A program made the position numbers and the translations under genes. From Geobacter sp. (GTDB lineage: Bacteria > Desulfobacterota > Desulfuromonadia > Geobacterales > Pseudopelobacteraceae): a stretch of 64,000 nucleotides of DNA. Under the pieces are notes generated by a model. The model had not been told where the DNA came from, did no database searches, and was given only the letters and a program-made list of their open reading frames with translations. The stretch's first letter is position 1. Each line of letters starts with the position of its first letter. Shown here piece by piece: positions 34,679 to 46,100 of the stretch. The DNA lies in contig VFJW01000033.1 in assembly GCA_009885845.1 (NCBI GenBank), positions 91,429-155,428 of the forward strand. Direction: 5' to 3'.

Positions 34679-35311
34679 TTACAGCAGATTGTTTTCAATA
34701 ACGAACCGGGTTATTTCCGCATTGTTCTTCATGTTCAGCTTGCGGAGGATATGGGCCCGGTAGGTGCTGACGGTCTTGACGCTCAAAGAAAGCTCGTCGG
34801 CAATTTTGCCGACCGTTTTGCCGGAGCCGATCAGGCTCATTACCTGGTATTCCCGGTTGGAGAGGCTATGCTGGAGTTCCTGCTGGCTGACATCGCTGAG
34901 ACCGGTGACGAGAGACTCTGCCAGTACCGAACTCACATATTTTTTCCCCCGCGAAATTTTGTAGAGCGCATCAAGGAGTTCCGTCGAAGGACTGCTCTTG
35001 GTCAGGTAGCCGGATGCTCCCGACTTGTAGGCGCGGAGCGCAAACTGCTCCTCGGGATGCATACTGAGGACAAGAACCGGCAGCTTCGGCCTGATGTTCT
35101 TCAGCTCCACCAGCACATCAAGTCCGTTTCTCCCCGGCATGGTGATATCAAGAATCACTATGTCATACTCCTTGCCTTGCACTTTGCTCAGCAGTTCCTG
35201 CCCGTTGACCGCTTCGTCGACAACAGTCATGTCTACTGTTGTTTCAATAACCTGCTTGAGCCCTTCCCTGAAAATGGCGTGATCATCGGCAATTATTATC
35301 CTGACGGACAT
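34679..35311 (-). CDS. NarL/FixJ-type response regulator
   Basis: A 210-residue DNA-binding regulator. The receiver has DDHAIFREGL and phospho-acceptor Asp in VILDITMPGRNGLD; the LuxR-type helix-turn-helix is LSNREYQVMSLIGSGKTVGKIADEL followed by SVKTVSTYRAHILRKL. GGAGG precedes the ATG. It starts two bases after the kinase stop, so the two are a coupled pair. Targets unknown. Confidence 0.93.
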   Translation of the reverse strand: MSVRIIIADDHAIFREGLKQVIETTVDMTVVDEAVNGQELLSKVQGKEYDIVILDITMPGRNGLDVLVELKNIRPKLPVLVLSMHPEEQFALRAYKSGASGYLTKSSPSTELLDALYKISRGKKYVSSVLAESLVTGLSDVSQQELQHSLSNREYQVMSLIGSGKTVGKIADELSLSVKTVSTYRAHILRKLNMKNNAEITRFVIENNLL

Positions 35312-35313
35312 GG

Positions 35314-36072
35314 TTAATCCTCCTTCTCTGATAACGGCAATCGTACAAAAAGTGCGGTTCCCTGCGTAGGGGAGCCGAATATTCTCAATTTTCCTCCGAG
35401 CGACTTTGCCCGCTCCTGCATTGTTGCGATGCCAAAAGAGAGCGGGCTGTTCTTCTCCTCCGCACGGAGTCCCCGGCCATTATCGCGAACCGAGAGCATC
35501 AGCCACCCTTTTCGTTCCACCAGATTCAACTCTATATGAGTGGCGCCGGAGTGGCGTTCAACATTGGACAGCGCTTCCTGCACTATCCGGAAAATTGCCG
35601 TTGACACCGTGTGATCCACCCTCTTCTCCGGGAGAATAATAACCGTCTTGCAGGTTATCCCGCCCCGTTTACTGATTTTCTGAACCTTCCACTCCAGAGC
35701 CGCAGCAAGCCCCAGCAGATCGAGCATTACCGGTCGCAATTCCGAAGAGATTCGCTGCACGGTCACAATAGATGAAGAAATCAACTCCTCGATAACGGCG
35801 GAACGGGCGACAAGCTGCGTGTGATCCTGGAACCCCGTCATCAGGAGAGACATATTCAGCTGAATGGCCGCCAGCTTCTGCCCCAGATCTTCCTGAAGTT
35901 CCCGGGCGAATGCCGTACGCTCTTCCTCCTGGACCTCCATAAGTCTGGCCACAAGATTATGCTGTATGATCAGCGCACGTTCCTGTGCTTCAGCACGCGC
36001 TGAATGCCGGGATTTTCTCCCCACCTGACTCCCGGCGGCAGGTGCTGCACTCCTGTCAGTACCTGTTTTCAA
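35314..36072 (-). CDS. NarX-type histidine kinase lacking its phospho-acceptor histidine
   Basis: A 252-residue cytosolic kinase-like protein of the HisKA_3 (NarX/DegS) family. The dimerisation motif reads FARELQEDLGQKLAAIQ, whereas the family has RELHD/E; the acceptor His position (residue 60) is Gln, encoded by CAG. The ATPase domain appears intact (EALSNVERHSGA, VRDNGRGL, FGIATMQERAKSLGG). It has no membrane helix or sensory domain. The start is TTG with AGAGGA six bases upstream. It may act as a phosphatase, as a partner in a heterodimer, or be inactive. Confidence 0.85.
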   Translation of the reverse strand: MKTGTDRSAAPAAGSQVGRKSRHSARAEAQERALIIQHNLVARLMEVQEEERTAFARELQEDLGQKLAAIQLNMSLLMTGFQDHTQLVARSAVIEELISSSIVTVQRISSELRPVMLDLLGLAAALEWKVQKISKRGGITCKTVIILPEKRVDHTVSTAIFRIVQEALSNVERHSGATHIELNLVERKGWLMLSVRDNGRGLRAEEKNSPLSFGIATMQERAKSLGGKLRIFGSPTQGTALFVRLPLSEKED

Positions 36073-36533: not shown

Positions 36534-37862
36534 ATGACGTACATCATACCCTGTCTTGCCTCATTCCTTCTCACTGCGGTTCTCACTCCGCAGATAATCC
36601 GCCTTGCCACGACGTGCAACTGCCTGGACATACCGGGAGGGCGGCGACTGCACAAAGAGGCAACTCCACGGTGGGGCGGCGTGGCGTTTTTTATCGGTGT
36701 GCTGCCGTTCCTCTGTCTGGAAAACGGAGACGGCAGCCTGACGGCGTACCTTGCCGCAGCGGCCCTGCTCGTCGCTATGGGGATGGTGGATGATCGTAGA
36801 TCACTCGGCTGGAAACCGAAAATCACCATCATGGCCGCCGCCGCCGCTCTTGTCATATCCGGCGGGGACATTACCGTTCACCAGATCGGATTCTACGGCT
36901 CTCTCGGGCGGGTGGAACTCGGGGCGTTCAGCATCCCCTTCACCTTCATAAGCATTGTCGGCATCACCAACGCCATCAATCTCCTCGACGGCCTGAACGG
37001 ACTTGCCGGGGGCGTCTCGCTGCTCGGATTCCTGTTCATGGGGATAGCAGCGCTCCTCGCCGGCAACATACCGGTTGCGGTTATCTGCTTTACCTTCGTA
37101 GGGGCCCTCGGCGCTTTTCTCCTCTACAACTTTCCCGCAGCCCGGATCTTCATGGGGGACAGTGGCAGCCTCTTTCTCGGCTTCTCTCTTGCCGTTACCG
37201 CTCTGCTGCTGACCCAGGGGCCGACCTCGTCCGTTGATTCAATGTTCCCGACGCTGGTGCTGCTGCTTCCCATCTTCGATACCCTCCGGGTACTGCTGGT
37301 ACGGCTCCTGAACGGGAAAAATCCATTCAGGGCAGACAACCTTCACCTGCATTACCTGCTGGTGAACAAGAACATTTCCCCAGCGAATGTGACACTGCTG
37401 TTCTGGGCATTGACGGCGATATTCGGAGGCATCGCACTCTCACTGACAGCCGGAACATCGGAATCATATCTTGCCGTAGTGTTTGTAGTTTCAATACTCC
37501 TCGGCTTCTGGACCACCTGTCTGGGACGAAAGCGCCCGACTGGTGAAAAAAGGTGCCCCGAGGCATATTTACCGAACACCATCGAAGCATATTCGACCGG
37601 ATTCAGCAGTTATGATACTACCGGCATGGGCTTCACCAGCAAGAGAGGGATGAGCGTGCTCAAATGGATGGTGAGCATGGGTGTTATGCTTCTGGCCACG
37701 CAGGCTTATGCGGTGCCCTATTACCGGTTTGACAAAAAAACGACCAATCAAGCCGAGATTGTATCTCTTAACAAAGCCAGTGCCGTATCCGATTTGCGGC
37801 TGCAGATCAACAAGGGAAACCCATTTACAAATCCAGCAGCACTGGAGAAAAACTATGAATAA
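36534..37862 (+). CDS. WecA/TagO-like undecaprenyl-phosphate sugar-1-phosphate transferase with secreted-type tail
   Basis: The first 320 residues or so form a polytopic membrane enzyme of glycosyltransferase family 4 that starts lipid-linked polysaccharide synthesis. Motifs: VDDRRSLGWKPK, NAINLLDGLNGLAGG, FMGDSGSLFLGF and ADNLHLHYLL. The last 90 residues are unusual: after LGRKRP comes a linker, then MSVLKWMVSMGVMLLATQAYA, which looks like a complete signal peptide, and a short polar tail. An internal ATG at 37650 preceded by AGAGAGG could produce this part separately. The stop overlaps the next gene by eight bases. Confidence 0.85.
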   Translation: MTYIIPCLASFLLTAVLTPQIIRLATTCNCLDIPGGRRLHKEATPRWGGVAFFIGVLPFLCLENGDGSLTAYLAAAALLVAMGMVDDRRSLGWKPKITIMAAAAALVISGGDITVHQIGFYGSLGRVELGAFSIPFTFISIVGITNAINLLDGLNGLAGGVSLLGFLFMGIAALLAGNIPVAVICFTFVGALGAFLLYNFPAARIFMGDSGSLFLGFSLAVTALLLTQGPTSSVDSMFPTLVLLLPIFDTLRVLLVRLLNGKNPFRADNLHLHYLLVNKNISPANVTLLFWALTAIFGGIALSLTAGTSESYLAVVFVVSILLGFWTTCLGRKRPTGEKRCPEAYLPNTIEAYSTGFSSYDTTGMGFTSKRGMSVLKWMVSMGVMLLATQAYAVPYYRFDKKTTNQAEIVSLNKASAVSDLRLQINKGNPFTNPAALEKNYE

Positions 37863-38988
37863 CAAGATTGTAAATATTGCCGCCATGCTCATTCTAACAC
37901 AGATCGGCACGTTGCCGGTTCTGGCAGCCTCGCCGGTCGGATCTCCGACTCCGCTCGACAAAAAGCTTTCCGCAGCCGCTGTGACTGGTACTCAAACGGC
38001 AAAATCTTCCGTTCAAATCACATCGGTACTGGAGCGTTTCCGGACTTATTCCGGGCCGCGAACACCTGCGGCCCTGGTGGCGCTGTTTGCCGCGCCGGTT
38101 ACAGCAGCAACCATTCATCAACACCCCGAAGTCGCCCTGAGTGATGGTGCCTCAATTGTCAAGATTACAGTTGATGCTGGGCCTCAGGAGAACAAGTCCC
38201 CCAATATTGCCTTCAACGAGGCAAAACTGATCTCTCTAAAGCAAAACAAACCGGGAAAATGGGATATTGAAGCGCTTCCGGACGGCGGAACCTGGAATGT
38301 TTCGCTGATCCTGCTGACCGGTTCAGATTCGAGAACAGTTCCTCTCACCGTAGCCCCGATATTGCCGGCAGGAACAGATCTCAGCGAACGGGGATTTATC
38401 ACTTTTCTTGGCGGCGCCAAGGCAGCCTCTCAGCCTCTACAGGATTTGAACGGTGATGGCCGCCGTGACTATCTGGATGACTACATCTTCACCGCCAACT
38501 ACCTGGCCAGGCCGAACAGCGCGACAGCCGGTTCTGATTCCGGGCAAACCCCTGAGGCACAACATCCCGTTACCACTCAGAAATCGGATATCCAATATTC
38601 GGATGACAGGCAGAGCTCTGAATTGCAAGGTTCAGGTGTAAAACAAAACTCTGAACCACAAGAAATTGAAAGTAGTCAAGGTTCTAATTCTGTCCAGACT
38701 GCAACGCCACAGCCTGTTCCCGGAGGAACAGGAATAGAGATGCCGCCGGTGCCAGTAGCACCAACGGTAACAGCGCCAGTAACACCATCAGTAATAGCCC
38801 CAACAGTTGCTCCAACGCAAACAGAGCCGACTTCAACACCAACAACAGATCCGTCGCCACTGCCGGAACCAGTGCCAGCGCCGGAAATACAGCTTGATAC
38901 CACGCCGGACAGACATAATCTGATTAACAGGAACGAACGGGCTCGTAAAATCAAGGAGCTCCTTCAGCCATCACCAACAACTAACTAG
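37855..38988 (+). CDS. Secreted protein with single dockerin-like calcium loop and Pro/Thr-rich tail
   Basis: The ORF track begins upstream in another frame; the likely start is ATG 37855 with GGAG seven bases before, overlapping the end of the WecA-like gene. The 377-residue product has a signal peptide ending LPVLAAS, a central domain I do not recognise, then DLNGDGRRDYLDDYIFTANYL, an EF-hand/dockerin-like calcium loop. A Gln/Ser-rich stretch and a long Pro/Thr/Val repeat follow, as in cell-wall or matrix spacers. It may be an extracellular matrix protein linked to the polysaccharide made by its neighbour (inference). Confidence 0.7.
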   Translation: MNNKIVNIAAMLILTQIGTLPVLAASPVGSPTPLDKKLSAAAVTGTQTAKSSVQITSVLERFRTYSGPRTPAALVALFAAPVTAATIHQHPEVALSDGASIVKITVDAGPQENKSPNIAFNEAKLISLKQNKPGKWDIEALPDGGTWNVSLILLTGSDSRTVPLTVAPILPAGTDLSERGFITFLGGAKAASQPLQDLNGDGRRDYLDDYIFTANYLARPNSATAGSDSGQTPEAQHPVTTQKSDIQYSDDRQSSELQGSGVKQNSEPQEIESSQGSNSVQTATPQPVPGGTGIEMPPVPVAPTVTAPVTPSVIAPTVAPTQTEPTSTPTTDPSPLPEPVPAPEIQLDTTPDRHNLINRNERARKIKELLQPSPTTN

Positions 38989-39046: not shown

Positions 39047-39625
39047 ATGAGACGTCAGTCACTGATAATAATGTTTTTTCCTGTTTTGTTGTTCCTGTTG
39101 ATAGCCATCAACTCGGCGGCCGCTGAAGATTTTAAGTACAAGCGCACCATTGAGAGCTACACCATGCCGGATGTCACGCTGGTCTCCCAGAACAACACCC
39201 GGATCAATTTCAAGAAACTGATTGATTCGGACAAGCCGGTGGTGGTTGACTTTATCTACGGCACCTGTACCACCATCTGCCCGGTGCTCTCAGCCGGTTA
39301 TTCCAGTCTGCAGCGGAAGCTTGACAAGAACAGCGCCAATGTTCAGTTGATTTCAATCTCCATTGATCCGGAAAATGATACACCGAAAGTCATGAAGGAA
39401 TACCTGAAGCGCTATCGGGCCAAGCCGGGTTGGGACTTTTTCACCGGCAGCCGTGCAGATATCGACAAAGTCATGTATGCCTTCAATGCCTATATCCCCA
39501 ACAAAATGTATCACTATCCGCTGACCTTGATCCGAAACCCCAAGGATGGCACCTGGGTCCGGATCTTCGGTTTGACCAGCACTTCTGAATTTGTAAACGA
39601 ATATAAAAAAGTCGGCGGCATTTAA
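39047..39625 (+). CDS. SCO1/SenC/PrrC family copper chaperone-like protein
   Basis: A 192-residue thioredoxin-fold protein with an N-terminal signal/anchor (FFPVLLFLLIAINSAAAED). The copper site is complete: CTTICP supplies the CxxxC pair and YHYPLTLI the downstream His. SCO proteins deliver copper or maintain thiols for copper enzymes, classically cytochrome oxidase CuA. Here the likely client is the multicopper oxidase three genes downstream. The start at 39047 has AAGGAG six bases upstream; the track start lies in the repeat hairpin. Confidence 0.9.
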   Translation: MRRQSLIIMFFPVLLFLLIAINSAAAEDFKYKRTIESYTMPDVTLVSQNNTRINFKKLIDSDKPVVVDFIYGTCTTICPVLSAGYSSLQRKLDKNSANVQLISISIDPENDTPKVMKEYLKRYRAKPGWDFFTGSRADIDKVMYAFNAYIPNKMYHYPLTLIRNPKDGTWVRIFGLTSTSEFVNEYKKVGGI

Positions 39626-39654
39626 CCCCTCTAAATCTCCCTTTATGCCCCAGA

Positions 39655-39706
39655 GGGTACTTACCTAAGGGGAGACTTCAAGGCTTCCCCCCTTAGGTAA
39701 GTACCC
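39655..39706 (+). repeat. Perfect 18-bp inverted repeat hairpin
   Basis: GGGTACTTACCTAAGGGG (39655-39672) and its exact complement (39689-39706) enclose a 16-base loop. Outer sequences aacccctctaaatctccctt and gggactgaggggggtt extend the pairing. It lies between the SCO1 and FKBP genes and resembles the pyrimidine-rich intergenic palindromes at 34.6 and 63.6 kb. It lacks a T-run, so it may stabilise or partly end the SCO1 transcript. Confidence 0.8.
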
Positions 39707-39785
39707 AAAGGGCCTAAAGGGGGACTGAGGGGGGTTAGATTTAGATGTCACATGGTACTAGATAGAATTTTCCTGGGAGGAATGA

Positions 39786-40520
39786 ATGAAAAACATCGTC
39801 GTAATGAGCGTAACCGCAATGATGCTGATGGCTGTACAGGTACCGGCCAAAGAAGTGCAGCAGCTCAATACTCAAAATGACAAGGTCAGTTACGGTATCG
39901 GGGTTGACATGGCGAGGAATCTCAAAAAGCAGGGCATTGACGCCGATCTTGAGCTGGTGATCAAGGGAATGCGTGATGCTTCCTCAGGCGCCAGGCTGCT
40001 GATAAGCGATGCCGAAATGCAGAAGTCGTTGGCCGATTATCAAAAGGAGCTTGCCGGCAAGCAGGCCCAGCTCAGGGTGTTGGCAGCAGAAAAAAATAAA
40101 AGGGTTGGTACGGCCTATCTCAAGGCAAACATGAAAAAAGATGGCGTTGTGGCGCTCCCCAGCGGTCTGCAGTACAAAATTATCAAAGACGGCACCGGTG
40201 TCAAACCGGCGGAAAACGACAATGTTACCTGCCGTTACCGGGGTACGCTTATTGATGGCACCGAATTTGACAGCTCGGAGATGCTGGGTTATCCGGTGAC
40301 GTTCAATGTGAAAGACAGCGTAGTCAGCGGCTGGGCGGAAGCTCTCAAACTGATGCCGAGCGGTTCAAAGTGGCAAGTGGTCATTCCGCCGGAACTGGCA
40401 TATGGCGAAAAAGGCGCAGGTCGCGATATCGGGCCTAATTCAACCTTGCTGTATGAAATTGAACTCATTGCTGTCAACGCTGCCCCTGTAGCCTTAAATA
40501 CGAAGGATGCACTCAAATGA
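39786..40520 (+). CDS. FKBP-type peptidyl-prolyl isomerase (Mip/FkpA-like)
   Basis: A 244-residue exported protein: signal peptide (MLMAVQVPAKEV), helical N-terminal dimerisation domain with KVSYGIGVDMARNLKKQGID, and a C-terminal FKBP fold (about residues 140-235) with GLQYKIIKDGTG, GTEFDSSEMLGYPVTF, VVSGWAEALKLM and IPPELAYGEKG. Such periplasmic isomerases assist folding. It overlaps the next gene by four bases (ATGA), tying it to the cytochrome fusion and multicopper oxidase, whose large Pro-rich domains may be clients. Confidence 0.92.
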   Translation: MKNIVVMSVTAMMLMAVQVPAKEVQQLNTQNDKVSYGIGVDMARNLKKQGIDADLELVIKGMRDASSGARLLISDAEMQKSLADYQKELAGKQAQLRVLAAEKNKRVGTAYLKANMKKDGVVALPSGLQYKIIKDGTGVKPAENDNVTCRYRGTLIDGTEFDSSEMLGYPVTFNVKDSVVSGWAEALKLMPSGSKWQVVIPPELAYGEKGAGRDIGPNSTLLYEIELIAVNAAPVALNTKDALK

Positions 40521-42325
40521 AAGCGGCATCGCCTTTCAATATATCCACGCGGAGTACCGTCGCATTACTGTTGCTGCTCTTGATGCTTTTCAGCGTACCC
40601 GGTTGGGGGAGCGGGCAGGAAATGCCTGTGTCCACACCGGCTGAAATGCTGCAGTGGGGTGAACTCATGTACCGGGACGGCCTGCTTCCTTCTGGCGAAT
40701 CGATGAAGGCCACCATCAACGGTGATGTCACGGTGCCCGGTAACGCCTTCAGCTGCGTCAGCTGCCACTTGCGCAGCGGCATCGGCTCGGTCGAGGGGCA
40801 GTACGTTTCTCCTCCGACCAACGGCCGGAAACTGTTCAAGCCCTACTATCAATACGACCCTGACCCGCAGGACTATTCAATAATCAAAAAATCCATGAAT
40901 GAAGGTCGGGAGCCGGTGCTGCCGTTATATCGCCCCGCTTTTACCGACCAGACCCTGGCTGCGGCAATTCGGGAAGGTGTAAGCCCGAGCGGCCGGCGAC
41001 TCAAGGAAATCATGCCCCGCTATCTGCTCGAAGACCGGGACATGGCGATTCTTACCTCCTACCTGAAGACCCTTTCGGACGAAGTCTCACCGGGAGTTGA
41101 CAAACAGTACAAGACGATCCGCTTTGCCACGGTCATTGCCGGCGATGTTCCCGCTGCTGACCGCAAGGAGATGCTCGCTACAGTAGACGCCATTATTGAA
41201 CTGCATAACAAAAACGCCAAGGTAAAGAACCGACGCCAAAACCTGGGCACGGAAATAAAGGAGGCTGACTTCAATTATCCCATGTTTACGCTGTCCCGCT
41301 GGGAGTTGAAGGGGCCGGCATCAACCTGGCGGGCTCAACTGGACGAGCACTACCGCAAGGAACCGGTTTTCGCATTGTTGGGCGGACTCTCCGCCGCCCA
41401 TTGGCAGCCGATGCATGAATTCAGCGAGCAGAACAAAATCCCCTGTCTGCTGCCGATAACCGACCTGCCGGTGGTCTCCGATACCGACTGGTACACCCTT
41501 TATTTCAACAAGGGCATGTACCAGGAAGGTGATACGACGGCCCGCTATCTGGCCTTGAATTCCGATCCTGCTGCCGACGGCGCGGTGCTTCAGGTTGTTG
41601 AGGATTCGGCGCGTGCCCGGGCGGTGGCGGGCGGCTTCCTTGAAGCCTGGAAAGAGATTGGCCGCACCGAGCCTGAGACGATCTACCTCCCCCCCGGTGA
41701 GCGTATCAGCGCAGCGATGCTCCGTAAGCTTAATGAGCAGAAACACCCTGCCGCTCTCATGCTCTGGACAGCCGCCGGCACACTCCAGGCGGTGGATGCG
41801 CTGGCGGCCGACAGAGAACGGGTGAAGATGGTCTTTGTCTCATCTTCCTTGCTGCAGCAGGATCTGTGGGCGCTTCCGGAGAAAGCCCGTGACGTTACCT
41901 ACATCACTTACCCCTACCGGCTTGACGATGGTAAGGATCTGTATACCGTCAACTCCCGATTGTGGCTGGAAAAACGCACCATCCCCGACGGCGGCAAGCG
42001 GATCTCAACACGGATGTTTTCGCTCTCCAACGTCCTCTTGGAGCCGTTTCAGGTGGTCAGGAGAGACTATAACCCGAACGGCCTGGGCAAAGGCCAGGTC
42101 ACGATGGAGAATCAGTTTGAGATGATGATGCATGTCAAACGCAATTATTACCGGGATTACCTGTTTGACGTCATCGGCATGTTCGCCGACAAACTCAGCA
42201 TTGATTATGAACGGCTCAGCTTTGGCCCCGGCCAGCGCTACGCATCAAAGGGGTGCTACATCGTCCAGCTTTCCGGCGGCCCCAAAGCAGAGCTGATCAA
42301 AAAAAGCGACTGGGTTATTCATTAG
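40517..42325 (+). CDS. Cytochrome c fused to periplasmic ligand-binding protein domain
   Basis: A 602-residue exported protein. After a signal peptide (LLLLLLMLFSVPGWGSG) comes a single-heme cytochrome c domain with CVSCH near residue 80 and Met candidates around KEIMPRYL. From about residue 195 the sequence follows a type-1 periplasmic binding protein (ABC/LivJ-like) fold: IRFATVIAGD, VFALLGGLSAAHWQPM, IPCLLPITDLPV, WYTLYFNKGMYQEGD and LMLWTAAGTLQAVDAL. The fusion suggests a redox protein whose state depends on a bound ligand. Coupled to the FKBP gene upstream and 72 bp before the multicopper oxidase. Confidence 0.85.
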   Translation: MKAASPFNISTRSTVALLLLLLMLFSVPGWGSGQEMPVSTPAEMLQWGELMYRDGLLPSGESMKATINGDVTVPGNAFSCVSCHLRSGIGSVEGQYVSPPTNGRKLFKPYYQYDPDPQDYSIIKKSMNEGREPVLPLYRPAFTDQTLAAAIREGVSPSGRRLKEIMPRYLLEDRDMAILTSYLKTLSDEVSPGVDKQYKTIRFATVIAGDVPAADRKEMLATVDAIIELHNKNAKVKNRRQNLGTEIKEADFNYPMFTLSRWELKGPASTWRAQLDEHYRKEPVFALLGGLSAAHWQPMHEFSEQNKIPCLLPITDLPVVSDTDWYTLYFNKGMYQEGDTTARYLALNSDPAADGAVLQVVEDSARARAVAGGFLEAWKEIGRTEPETIYLPPGERISAAMLRKLNEQKHPAALMLWTAAGTLQAVDALAADRERVKMVFVSSSLLQQDLWALPEKARDVTYITYPYRLDDGKDLYTVNSRLWLEKRTIPDGGKRISTRMFSLSNVLLEPFQVVRRDYNPNGLGKGQVTMENQFEMMMHVKRNYYRDYLFDVIGMFADKLSIDYERLSFGPGQRYASKGCYIVQLSGGPKAELIKKSDWVIH

Positions 42326-42397
42326 CAGGCAGGCTGTTTAAAACCGCGAAGTACACCCTGAAAATTATTTCAGGATCAAAGAGTAAGGAGGTTCTCC

Positions 42398-45300
42398 ATG
42401 AGACCTAAAAGTAGTACCGCCAAGAGACTGCTGTCACTCATCACCGCAATTTCGGTAATGACGATGTGCGCCGCATCCACGGTGTTTGCCGCCCCGCCAA
42501 ACACCACATTCCTCCCGGATTTCAGCAAGGAATTGCTGACTCCGACCTCCCAGGCCGCAACCGCCTGGACAAACACCATCCCCAATGCCCTGGCAGATTA
42601 TTACACCTTTATCCCTTACTCGAATGCCGATGCCCTAGCAATGGGGATAAGGGCAGGAGCCGCCCCCGGATCCTCCAACTGTGGGGTCTCGGCAGACTGC
42701 TACACTATCTCTGCCAGAAAGTTCGGCCAGCCGACCTCTCTGGAGTACCTGAAGAATCCCGCCATCCTCAACGCAAATCTGTTCCCCGGCACCGGCCTGC
42801 TGCAGGCTGGCGGGGTAACGCCATTTTACAATCACAACACACTAACCGGTACCCTTACCACTGCATGGGGATATGGCTCCGGCGGCGCCGGCTGGATGCC
42901 GAACTATCCTGCCGGACCAACCCTTGTTAAAGGCAATGCCCCGACTGCCTTCCAGAATGTGCCTTTTAACGCCACCTTCGGACCGGGCCAAAATGGTGAT
43001 CCGGCTGCCAAAGGCATCTGGCACTTTCCGGCTCCGACCATCAAGGGCACTAAAAATCGCCCGGTCTATGTCCAGTGGCTCAATGATCTGCCCAACGAAA
43101 AGCCTGCCGGCTTTGACCCTTCAATTGATTGCGGTCTCAACGCCCCTTACGGATTCCCGTACAATCGCCTGGTTACCCATGTTCATGGCGCCCATGTGGG
43201 CCCCGAGAGCGACGGCCTGACCACGGCCTGGTACACGCCGAACTTTGCTCTGCAGGGCGAAGGTGCGTTTCCTTCGTCGGCTTATACCACCTTTGGACCG
43301 CCGGGCACCTACAAGTACCCGATGGATCAGGAAGCCAGCACCATCTGGTATCATGACCATGCCATGGGTACAACGCACCTTAATACGAACATGGGTATGG
43401 CGGGATTCTTCCCGATTACCGACATGAATGAGCAGTCGCTGTTGACACCGCTTGCAGGCCCAGCCAGGGCCCTGCCCAACACTCTCTATGACTACGGGTT
43501 TGCCCTGCAGGATCGCAATTACGACACTACCGCCCAGATGGTGATGCCGGACTACGGCATTTACAACAGGGCCGATCCCGCCTGTACTCTCACTGTCGAC
43601 GGCCTGCCTGATCCGACAACCTGCCCAAGGCTGCAATGGATGAAAGAAGTTGACGGCCATTTAGTGCCCTATGTCGCCGGCAGCCCGCTTCTGTTAAACG
43701 CCAACAACATCGGTTTTGCCAATTTAACAGGTCCTTATGAATTGCCGGGCCAGGGCGCGCCGTTCCCGGCCGCCAGCGCCACACTTGAGTATTTTGGCAA
43801 TATGCCGGTCGTCAACGGCGTTACTTATGGCAAAATCGACATGGAAGCGCGCATTAACCGCATGCGCTTCATCGGCGGCACCGATTCACGTGCCTGGATC
43901 ATGCAGTTGGTGCGCCAGGACACCATGGCTGTAGTACCTTTCTATCAGATTGGTTCCGAGCAGGGACTGCTCAACAAGCCGGTGCTGCGCAATGTAATTG
44001 ACCTGATGCCGGGTGAGCGTATTGACGTGCTGGTTGACTTTAATGGTATTCCTGCAGCGACCAAGGTCAAGATGATGAACCTTGGCGGCGATACACCGTA
44101 TTCCGGTTATCAGGATTATCTCGCCGGCGCCATCACTCCCTCTGCCGATATTCCGCAAATCATGGAGTTCAATGTCATTGCAAAGGGTGGGAATTCCAAT
44201 TCCACACCGATTGCTACGCTTTTAGCTGCAGCGACCCCGCTGCGCCCACAAACCGTTGCTTTGGCCGATGGATCCGGTTTGCCTATAGTGCTAAAGGGAG
44301 CACCGGTCGTGACACGTAATGTTTCCCTGATAGAAATCACCGATCAGTATGGCCGTACCATGCCGACAATAGACGGCAGGGGCTTTTTACCGCCGGGTGT
44401 GCCGGTAACGGAAATCATCCTGCCGGGTCAGGTTGAGCAATGGGATATCATCAACACAACCGTTGATGCGCACCCCATGCACATCCATCAGGTTGCATTT
44501 CAAACGCTTAACCGTCAGGCAATCGATCTTTTCATTGCTCCGGGAGTAGACATAGCAAACCAGAACTTCACCGCGCCCACATATACGCCGGCAGGTGCTG
44601 TGCTTCCTGCTGATATATGGGATGCAGGCGAGAAGGATACAGTCCAGTGCCCACCGGGTTATGTAACCCGCGTAAAGATGGTGTTTGACGTGCTGGGTGA
44701 TTATGTCTGGCATTGCCACATCCTCTCACACGAAGAGCATGACATGATGCGTCCGTTCAAGGTTACCAATCAGGCGGTCGCACCAACCTTTGTCAATGTT
44801 CCGGCAATCAATACGGAAGGGCGCTACACAGTTGCCTGGGGCGGAACCGCAATACCGGGAGCCCAGTTTGTTTTGCAGGAGAAAGTCGGCGCCGGCGCCT
44901 TCGCAACCATCTACACCGGTGCATCTACTAAGGTGGATCTCTTCAGACCTGTTGCCGGAACTTACAGCTATCAGGTTGGCGTTGCCGCAACGGCATTTGG
45001 TGCAGGAACATTTACTGCCAGTCCATTCACGGCAGTATCCAATGGCGACGTCGCTTTTTCTCCGACGGCGACTGTTTTGGTTGCATTCACTTCCACCATG
45101 CTCACCCCGGCTAACACTGCAATTCTTGCCGGTGCAAGCCAGGTCTTTACCTGGGCAAATACAAATGCTGCTGCCTATCAGTTGTGGATTGGTACAACCG
45201 TAGGGGCGCTCAACCTAGGGAAGTTTCCTGCAATCGGAACTACAGCCACCACCGCCACGGTAACTGGTCTTCCTACTAACGGCAGCACGGTTAACGTCCG

Positions 45301-45922
45301 GCTCTGGTCACTGATAGGCACAACGTGGTCCTTCAATGACTACACCTACACATCGGGATCGGTAGCGGGTGTGGCCAACATGGTCACCCCGGCCAATGCA
45401 ACAACACTTACAGGTGCAAGCCAGGCCTTTACCTGGACTAATGCCGGAGCTACCCTCTATCAGGCATGGGTTGGTACAACACTAGGATCCAATAACCTTG
45501 GCATGTTCCCATCACCAGCATCGGCTGCAACTACTACCACTGTTACTGGCCTTCCCATTAACGGCAGCCCGGTTTTCGTCCGACTCTGGTCGAAGAACGG
45601 AGTAACGTGGTCTTCCAATGACTACACATATACAGCAGCGAGTCCAGCAGTAATGATTTCTCCAATCAGCCCTTCAACTCTTGCAGGGGCAAGTCGGGTC
45701 TTTACCTGGAGTAATACTGGTGCTACTGCTTACCAGTTGTGGGTTGGTGCAACCGCTGGGTCGCTCAGCATTGGGAAGTTCCCCAATGTAGGATCTGCAG
45801 CAACCACCGCCACTGTGACCGGCCTGCCTGCTAACGGCGGCGCTATCAACGTCCGTCTCTGGTCACAACTTGCAGATGGTACCTGGATTTTCAACGATTA
45901 CCCATATATCTCCGGTCCATAA
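42398..45922 (+). CDS. Large exported multicopper oxidase with three C-terminal repeats (OmpB-like)
   Basis: A 1174-residue protein with signal peptide (MTMCAASTVFAAPP). All copper motifs are present: HVHGAHVG near 260 and WYHDHAMG near 317 (type 2/3 sites), HPMHIHQVAF near 691 and WHCHILSHEEHDMM near 770 (type 1 and trinuclear). The last 400 residues contain Fn3-like sequence and three similar units of about 95 residues, each with LTGASQAFTW, YQxWVGTT, VTGLPxNG and VRLWS. Geobacter OmpB, a multicopper protein needed for Fe(III) oxide reduction, has comparable size; equivalence here is an inference. GTAAGGAGG precedes the ATG, and a terminator follows. Confidence 0.88.
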   Translation: MRPKSSTAKRLLSLITAISVMTMCAASTVFAAPPNTTFLPDFSKELLTPTSQAATAWTNTIPNALADYYTFIPYSNADALAMGIRAGAAPGSSNCGVSADCYTISARKFGQPTSLEYLKNPAILNANLFPGTGLLQAGGVTPFYNHNTLTGTLTTAWGYGSGGAGWMPNYPAGPTLVKGNAPTAFQNVPFNATFGPGQNGDPAAKGIWHFPAPTIKGTKNRPVYVQWLNDLPNEKPAGFDPSIDCGLNAPYGFPYNRLVTHVHGAHVGPESDGLTTAWYTPNFALQGEGAFPSSAYTTFGPPGTYKYPMDQEASTIWYHDHAMGTTHLNTNMGMAGFFPITDMNEQSLLTPLAGPARALPNTLYDYGFALQDRNYDTTAQMVMPDYGIYNRADPACTLTVDGLPDPTTCPRLQWMKEVDGHLVPYVAGSPLLLNANNIGFANLTGPYELPGQGAPFPAASATLEYFGNMPVVNGVTYGKIDMEARINRMRFIGGTDSRAWIMQLVRQDTMAVVPFYQIGSEQGLLNKPVLRNVIDLMPGERIDVLVDFNGIPAATKVKMMNLGGDTPYSGYQDYLAGAITPSADIPQIMEFNVIAKGGNSNSTPIATLLAAATPLRPQTVALADGSGLPIVLKGAPVVTRNVSLIEITDQYGRTMPTIDGRGFLPPGVPVTEIILPGQVEQWDIINTTVDAHPMHIHQVAFQTLNRQAIDLFIAPGVDIANQNFTAPTYTPAGAVLPADIWDAGEKDTVQCPPGYVTRVKMVFDVLGDYVWHCHILSHEEHDMMRPFKVTNQAVAPTFVNVPAINTEGRYTVAWGGTAIPGAQFVLQEKVGAGAFATIYTGASTKVDLFRPVAGTYSYQVGVAATAFGAGTFTASPFTAVSNGDVAFSPTATVLVAFTSTMLTPANTAILAGASQVFTWANTNAAAYQLWIGTTVGALNLGKFPAIGTTATTATVTGLPTNGSTVNVRLWSLIGTTWSFNDYTYTSGSVAGVANMVTPANATTLTGASQAFTWTNAGATLYQAWVGTTLGSNNLGMFPSPASAATTTTVTGLPINGSPVFVRLWSKNGVTWSSNDYTYTAASPAVMISPISPSTLAGASRVFTWSNTGATAYQLWVGATAGSLSIGKFPNVGSAATTATVTGLPANGGAINVRLWSQLADGTWIFNDYPYISGP

Positions 45923-45948
45923 TCGTTTGTAAATTCCATAAATGATAT

Positions 45949-45979
45949 AAAAGGCATCCTGAACTTCAGGATGCCTTTT
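45949..45979 (+). terminator. Rho-independent terminator of the multicopper oxidase operon
   Basis: AAAAGGCATCCTGAA pairs perfectly with TTCAGGATGCCTTTT over a single-base loop, ending in a T-run. It lies 27 bp after the stop codon. Confidence 0.92.
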
Positions 45980-46100
45980 AAATTTCTGCTTATTATCTAT
46001 ATTTAATCATATATTTAATCATACTTGACAATATTAAGTTTCTGATATTATTTGTTTGTTATGCATTATCTGTGTGATAAAGTCGCCAGTAATTAAAGTA

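Follow-up and report, generated by a model that had tools for sequence, protein, structure and literature searches.

The DNA examined here is a 64,000-nucleotide stretch of a Geobacter sp. genome (the window), in which the list of open reading frames and Pfam matches place five plus-strand genes in series between positions 37855 and 45922, with a hairpin after the last. Four of these genes had been named in an earlier note on this DNA, and all four are intact where it placed them: a SCO1/SenC copper chaperone (39047-39625; PF02630, 7e-20); a Mip-like, MofB-like FKBP peptidyl-prolyl isomerase predicted to be exported (39786-40520; PF01346 and PF00254, about 1e-25); a 602-residue MofC-like fusion of a one-haem cytochrome c and a type I periplasmic-binding protein (40517-42325; CVSCH motif and PF13458, 9e-10); and a 1174-residue multicopper oxidase (MCO) predicted to be secreted (42398-45922; PF07731, 2e-21, and PF07732). 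The fifth gene (37855-38988) encodes a 377-residue, predicted exported protein that we count as a further component of the module, its homologues lying in or beside SCO1/MofC/MCO clusters elsewhere. The FKBP stop and the fusion start overlap in an ATGA at 40517-40520, and the terminator hairpin at 45945-45983 (plus strand) has 19-nt arms that are 95% complementary and only a short T run. The overlap and the terminator on which the earlier note had based a single unit are thus both present, but the unit begins at least one gene earlier than it supposed, at 37855, where the fifth gene in turn overlaps its own upstream gene by 8 nt. Sec-type signal sequences, recognised by eye from the translations, stand at the N-termini of SCO1, FKBP, the MofC-like fusion and the MCO. 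By its predicted proteins, the operon is a member of the described mof/ompB cluster type.

The catalytic region of the MCO (residues about 200-792) contains all four copper motifs, with the Cys-His-Met ligands of type 1 copper and the histidines of type 2/3 copper, which identifies the protein as a multicopper oxidase. The motifs comprise H261 and H263 (43178-43186), H319 and H321 within WYHDHAMG (43352-43360), H692, H695 and H697 (44471-44488), and H772-C773-H774 with H778 and M783, a type 1 copper site with methionine (44711-44746). None of these residues varies in an alignment of eight close relatives or in a second of fifteen more diverse enzymes that includes a CotA-like enzyme of Bacillus pumilus. 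The C-terminal tail is built from three tandem copies of a repeat of about 91 residues (45093-45907), of which we found no other copy in the rest of the genome. A similar repeat (40% identity) forms the end of a giant, class II MCO in another genome (G096, locus L227), which suggests a shared surface-attachment part, and the repeat tail seems, from this likeness, to move between distant oxidase classes. The AlphaFold model of the MCO is poor, with pLDDT <50 in the tail, and no structural claim rests on it.

The MofC-like fusion carries a haem site at C80-C83-H84 (CVSCH, residues 80-84) with M166 as candidate axial ligand, and neither this site nor M166-P167 varies across fourteen aligned MofC sequences or across a further alignment of eight more diverse ones. 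The combination of cytochrome c and periplasmic-binding protein that marks this component of mof/ompB clusters is seen here as CVSCH together with PF13458, and the comparison drew on 80 homologous genes from 62 genomes of the order. In a structure search the predicted model matches type I periplasmic binding proteins, its local detail being too uncertain to name a ligand; the protein could act as a one-electron carrier and may also bind some small molecule. The alignment of MofC sequences also revealed an insertion of about 26 residues in the binding-protein domain (42035-42112), present in 8 of 55 sequences, all from the window's clade, and lacking in the other 47.

In SCO1, the copper ligands of the SCO1/SenC family, CxxxC (C74, C78) and a distal H156, are invariant in seven sequences, and the gene lies beside MofC as in mof/ompB clusters. 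The usual job of SCO1 proteins is the metallation of the CuA site of cytochrome oxidase. We found no COX2/CuA subunit in the window's genome, which is 99% complete, and the MCO is its only Cu-oxidase_2 protein; the MCO is therefore the evident client, and SCO1 most likely serves it. Another contig of the genome holds a second, weak SCO1-like match. By its PF01346 and PF00254 domains the FKBP corresponds to the FKBP-type isomerase (MofB) of mof/ompB clusters, and it plausibly assists the folding of a protein as large as the exported, repeat-tailed MCO.

Of the 141 genomes of the order, 63 contain MofC-like genes. Thirty-two MofC loci have readable flanks; SCO1 is found no more than 1 kb from MofC in 22 of them, FKBP no more than 3.5 kb away in 14 and an MCO no more than 6 kb away in 18. 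Contig ends truncate some of the loci in which a partner is missing. The exact order SCO1-FKBP-MofC-MCO recurs in Geobacteraceae bacterium GWC2_53_11 (G076, loci L069/L081) and in a genome of a second genus (G067, L070), and this recurrence lifts the observation beyond chance. The linkage is real, with SCO1-MofC as its core and FKBP and MCO more variable. To describe the four genes as conserved as a block would be too strong, given an FKBP nearby in only 14 of 32 loci. As to the four-gene order whose conservation the earlier note proposed to check, it is exact in two other genomes; the SCO1-fusion pair is widespread, FKBP is more mobile and the oxidase comes from either of two classes. MofC and SCO1 also cluster in Zoogloea, in Thiodictyon, in one Blastocatellia genome and in a Burkholderiales family represented by Polaromonas, and in a Sulfuricella genome MofC is grouped with FKBP and a giant MCO. 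At one further locus (L206, 7738-9297), a short MofC-like gene is directly overlapped by a 520-residue open frame with a match to SCO1, an arrangement that may be a shorter or fused version of the SCO1/MofC pair in Burkholderiales.

Clusters of the mofABC and ompB type have been published, with MofB as the FKBP and MofC as the cytochrome/binding-protein fusion (PMC5566968, PMC8218464); the mof operon was described in 2000, and experiment has since left the roles of MofB and MofC unsettled (PMC5566968). The module is thus of a kind already described, in metal-oxidising and iron-reducing bacteria, and not new. With mofABC of Leptothrix discophora and Rubrivivax A210 the window's operon shares the FKBP, the fusion and a large secreted MCO, and the five-gene mof operon of Rubrivivax likewise includes a copper chaperone and an exported unknown protein (PMC8218464); the window's operon differs in gene order and in the 26-residue MofC insertion. 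In the ompB cluster of Geobacter sulfurreducens (GSU1394-1398), which we compared by description, SCO1 also adjoins a MofC-like gene and a surface MCO is present, whereas FKBP is missing. The Slit_1812-1818 cluster of Sideroxydans lithotrophicus, likened by description, again unites SCO1, a predicted cytochrome and MCOs but adds three cupredoxin proteins; the MCO/SCO1/cytochrome cluster of Sideroxydans is more abundant on magnetite (PMC12016527). Good support for the earlier note's proposal of a dedicated extracellular redox module comes from partners conserved together across the order, from the export signals, from the lack of a CuA oxidase for SCO1 and from the publication of related clusters as candidate metal-redox systems. 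The note's further points, the oxidase as terminal enzyme and the contrast with simple copper resistance, stand as proposals. The oxidase class and the fifth component are not spelled out in the published mof/ompB descriptions that we consulted.

Across the order, MofC is adjoined by two classes of MCO, the window's class and a giant class (about 1100-2250 residues). In the tree the giant class forms one clade (11 rows, 100/100 support) apart from the Geobacterales clade of the window MCO, which scores 109.6 bits with the giant profile against 1127.5 with a profile of its own class from which it had been left out. Conversely, those giant MCOs that adjoin MofC in Burkholderiales reach 1040-1097 bits with the giant profile and stay <115 with the other. 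By tree and profile, the window MCO thus lies outside this MofA-type giant clade, a difference from mofABC. We call the giant clade MofA-type because of its length and because its Burkholderiales members adjoin MofC genes, MofA and OmpB sequences being outside the comparison. We found no giant-class MCO in the window's genome. Ten of the 80 MofC genes of the order lie within 8 kb of a window-class MCO, 35 within 8 kb of a giant one and none near both, and mapping the partner class onto the MofC tree requires several changes, which argues that MofC has probably changed its oxidase partner more than once. A scan of a wider collection of genome contigs with the MCO alignment matched the general copper motifs only and returned mostly CotA-like enzymes, with no named Leptothrix or G. 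sulfurreducens locus among them. In another family of the order, three loci (L236, L237, L238) have a giant and a CotA-like MCO with FKBP genes between them and no MofC nearby.

The fifth protein has no Pfam match, and the core that it shares with its relatives belongs to no Pfam family. Homologues, collected only from loci around MofC or MCO genes, lie at varying positions in or beside SCO1/MofC/MCO clusters of nine other genomes. Common to all is a C-terminal D-x-N-x-DG-x-x-D-Y motif that looks like a calcium-binding loop; in the window's protein it belongs to the conserved stretch DLNGDGxxDYxDDYIFTANYL. Longer relatives, in loci with giant MCOs, carry an N-terminal cohesin domain (PF00963; 4e-7 in L212 and, just under the cut-off, 1e-4 in L213). 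Weakly dockerin-like C-terminal ends were seen in some class I MCOs (L068, 6361-9168 on the minus strand; also L072, L074 and L075). A cohesin-dockerin-like pairing between class I MCOs and relatives of the fifth protein is possible on these marginal scores.

In order to rationalise these observations, we propose that this mof/ompB-type operon builds and serves one secreted MCO, which likely oxidises Fe(II), Mn(II) or a similar donor, and we give this reading a probability of about one half. It rests on the invariant copper motifs, haem site and Met-Pro pair, on the conserved neighbourhoods with identical order in L069/L081 and L070, on the MCO as evident client of SCO1, and on the published clusters of like composition, including the response of the Sideroxydans cluster to magnetite and the need for OmpB in Fe(III) oxide reduction. 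SCO1 would deliver copper in the periplasm and FKBP would assist folding of the large oxidase, or of its repeats; the MCO, once exported, would reside at the cell surface or further out, with the repeat tail as its likely attachment. The MofC fusion would pass single electrons between the MCO and the periplasmic cytochrome pool, or gate this transfer by binding a small ligand. By analogy with the published systems, the enzyme would most likely use O2 at an oxic/anoxic border to oxidise Fe(II), Mn(II) or a comparable electron donor at the surface. Several points weigh against this proposal: the Pfam scan returned no cytochrome match for the fusion and leaves its haem domain unrecognised; the closest solved relatives of the MCO, CotA, phenoxazinone synthase and bilirubin oxidase, oxidise organic compounds; a MofA-type function is not directly transferable to an enzyme outside the MofA-type clade; and an O2-using direction may be rare in an anaerobic relative of Geobacter. 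We rank Fe(II)/Mn(II) oxidation first, by analogy, with phenol oxidation and OmpB-like Fe(III) reduction as live rivals.

The affinity of the MCO with CotA and PhsA invites the reading that it is a laccase or phenol oxidase acting on extracellular humics or phenolics, with the binding-protein domain of MofC taking up an organic product or a quinone. Its nearest structures and NCBIfam models are CotA, phenoxazinone synthase and o-aminophenol oxidase, and aromatic-compound binding proteins are among the many type I binding proteins in the MofC structure search. We consider this alternative unlikely, since the MCO scores 165 with the phenol-oxidase model, whose cut-off is 950, and the giant class matches that model too, which indicates that the match marks the fold only. 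The laccase-like CotA/PhsA enzymes share the catalytic fold and copper ligands with the window MCO, but at about 30% identity they form a separate clade, and most lack an adjoining SCO1/MofC cluster. A dedicated haem partner is, to our knowledge, unusual for laccases. Slightly more doubtful is an outward electron conduit in the manner of G. sulfurreducens OmpB, in which the copper protein would aid anaerobic reduction of Fe(III) oxides and no O2 would be used: OmpB is cited in PMC5566968 as required for Fe(III) oxide reduction, and an OmpB homologue of G. soli is up-regulated on solid acceptors, but the window's genome is without the giant class. Copper detoxification by a cuprous oxidase like CueO or CopA, suggested by an MCO and a copper chaperone in one operon and by weak matches to both models, is very improbable, as the scores fall far below the curated cut-offs (CueO 89/525, CopA 28/479), outside either family, and copper-resistance operons do not, as far as we know, usually include a haem-binding-protein partner or large surface repeats.

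Beyond Fe(II)/Mn(II) oxidation as the preferred function, a more speculative view of the partner exchange, which we hold only tentatively, is that MofC, SCO1 and FKBP constitute an oxidase-independent service module whose client has repeatedly been swapped across two deep MCO clades. On this view the MofC insertion would be a docking element specific to the client, and the fifth protein, whose relatives bear cohesin domains, would act as a cell-surface scaffold. If the oxidase is exchangeable while MofC, SCO1 and the fifth protein stay, MofC would serve multicopper oxidases in general, and its insertion would offer a specific place to probe client recognition. With a single MCO, no giant type and no CuA oxidase, this genome makes copper delivery from SCO1 to MCO cleanly testable, and the operon extends the candidate extracellular metal-redox enzymes of Geobacter relatives beyond OmpB/OmpC.

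Upstream of the fifth gene lies a gene for a WecA-like glycosyltransferase, a placement also kept in G076, and polysaccharide-type genes follow the operon downstream; these neighbours are compatible with a surface setting and are no proof of one. A NarL/NarX-type two-component pair is encoded upstream on the minus strand (34679-36072), and a similar pair lies near the MofC cluster in L074. We do not count it as part of the module, both proteins being nearby in L074 only. Between the SCO1 and FKBP genes, a repeat search and comparison with the relative L069 identified an inverted repeat with 37-nt arms (39639-39722), at whose place the two genes of L069 are merely a short gap apart. Contig C167 of the window's genome carries part of a second copy; with this one copy, the case for an abundant repeat element is weak, and candidates for the nature of the inverted repeat are a small mobile element and a processing hairpin.
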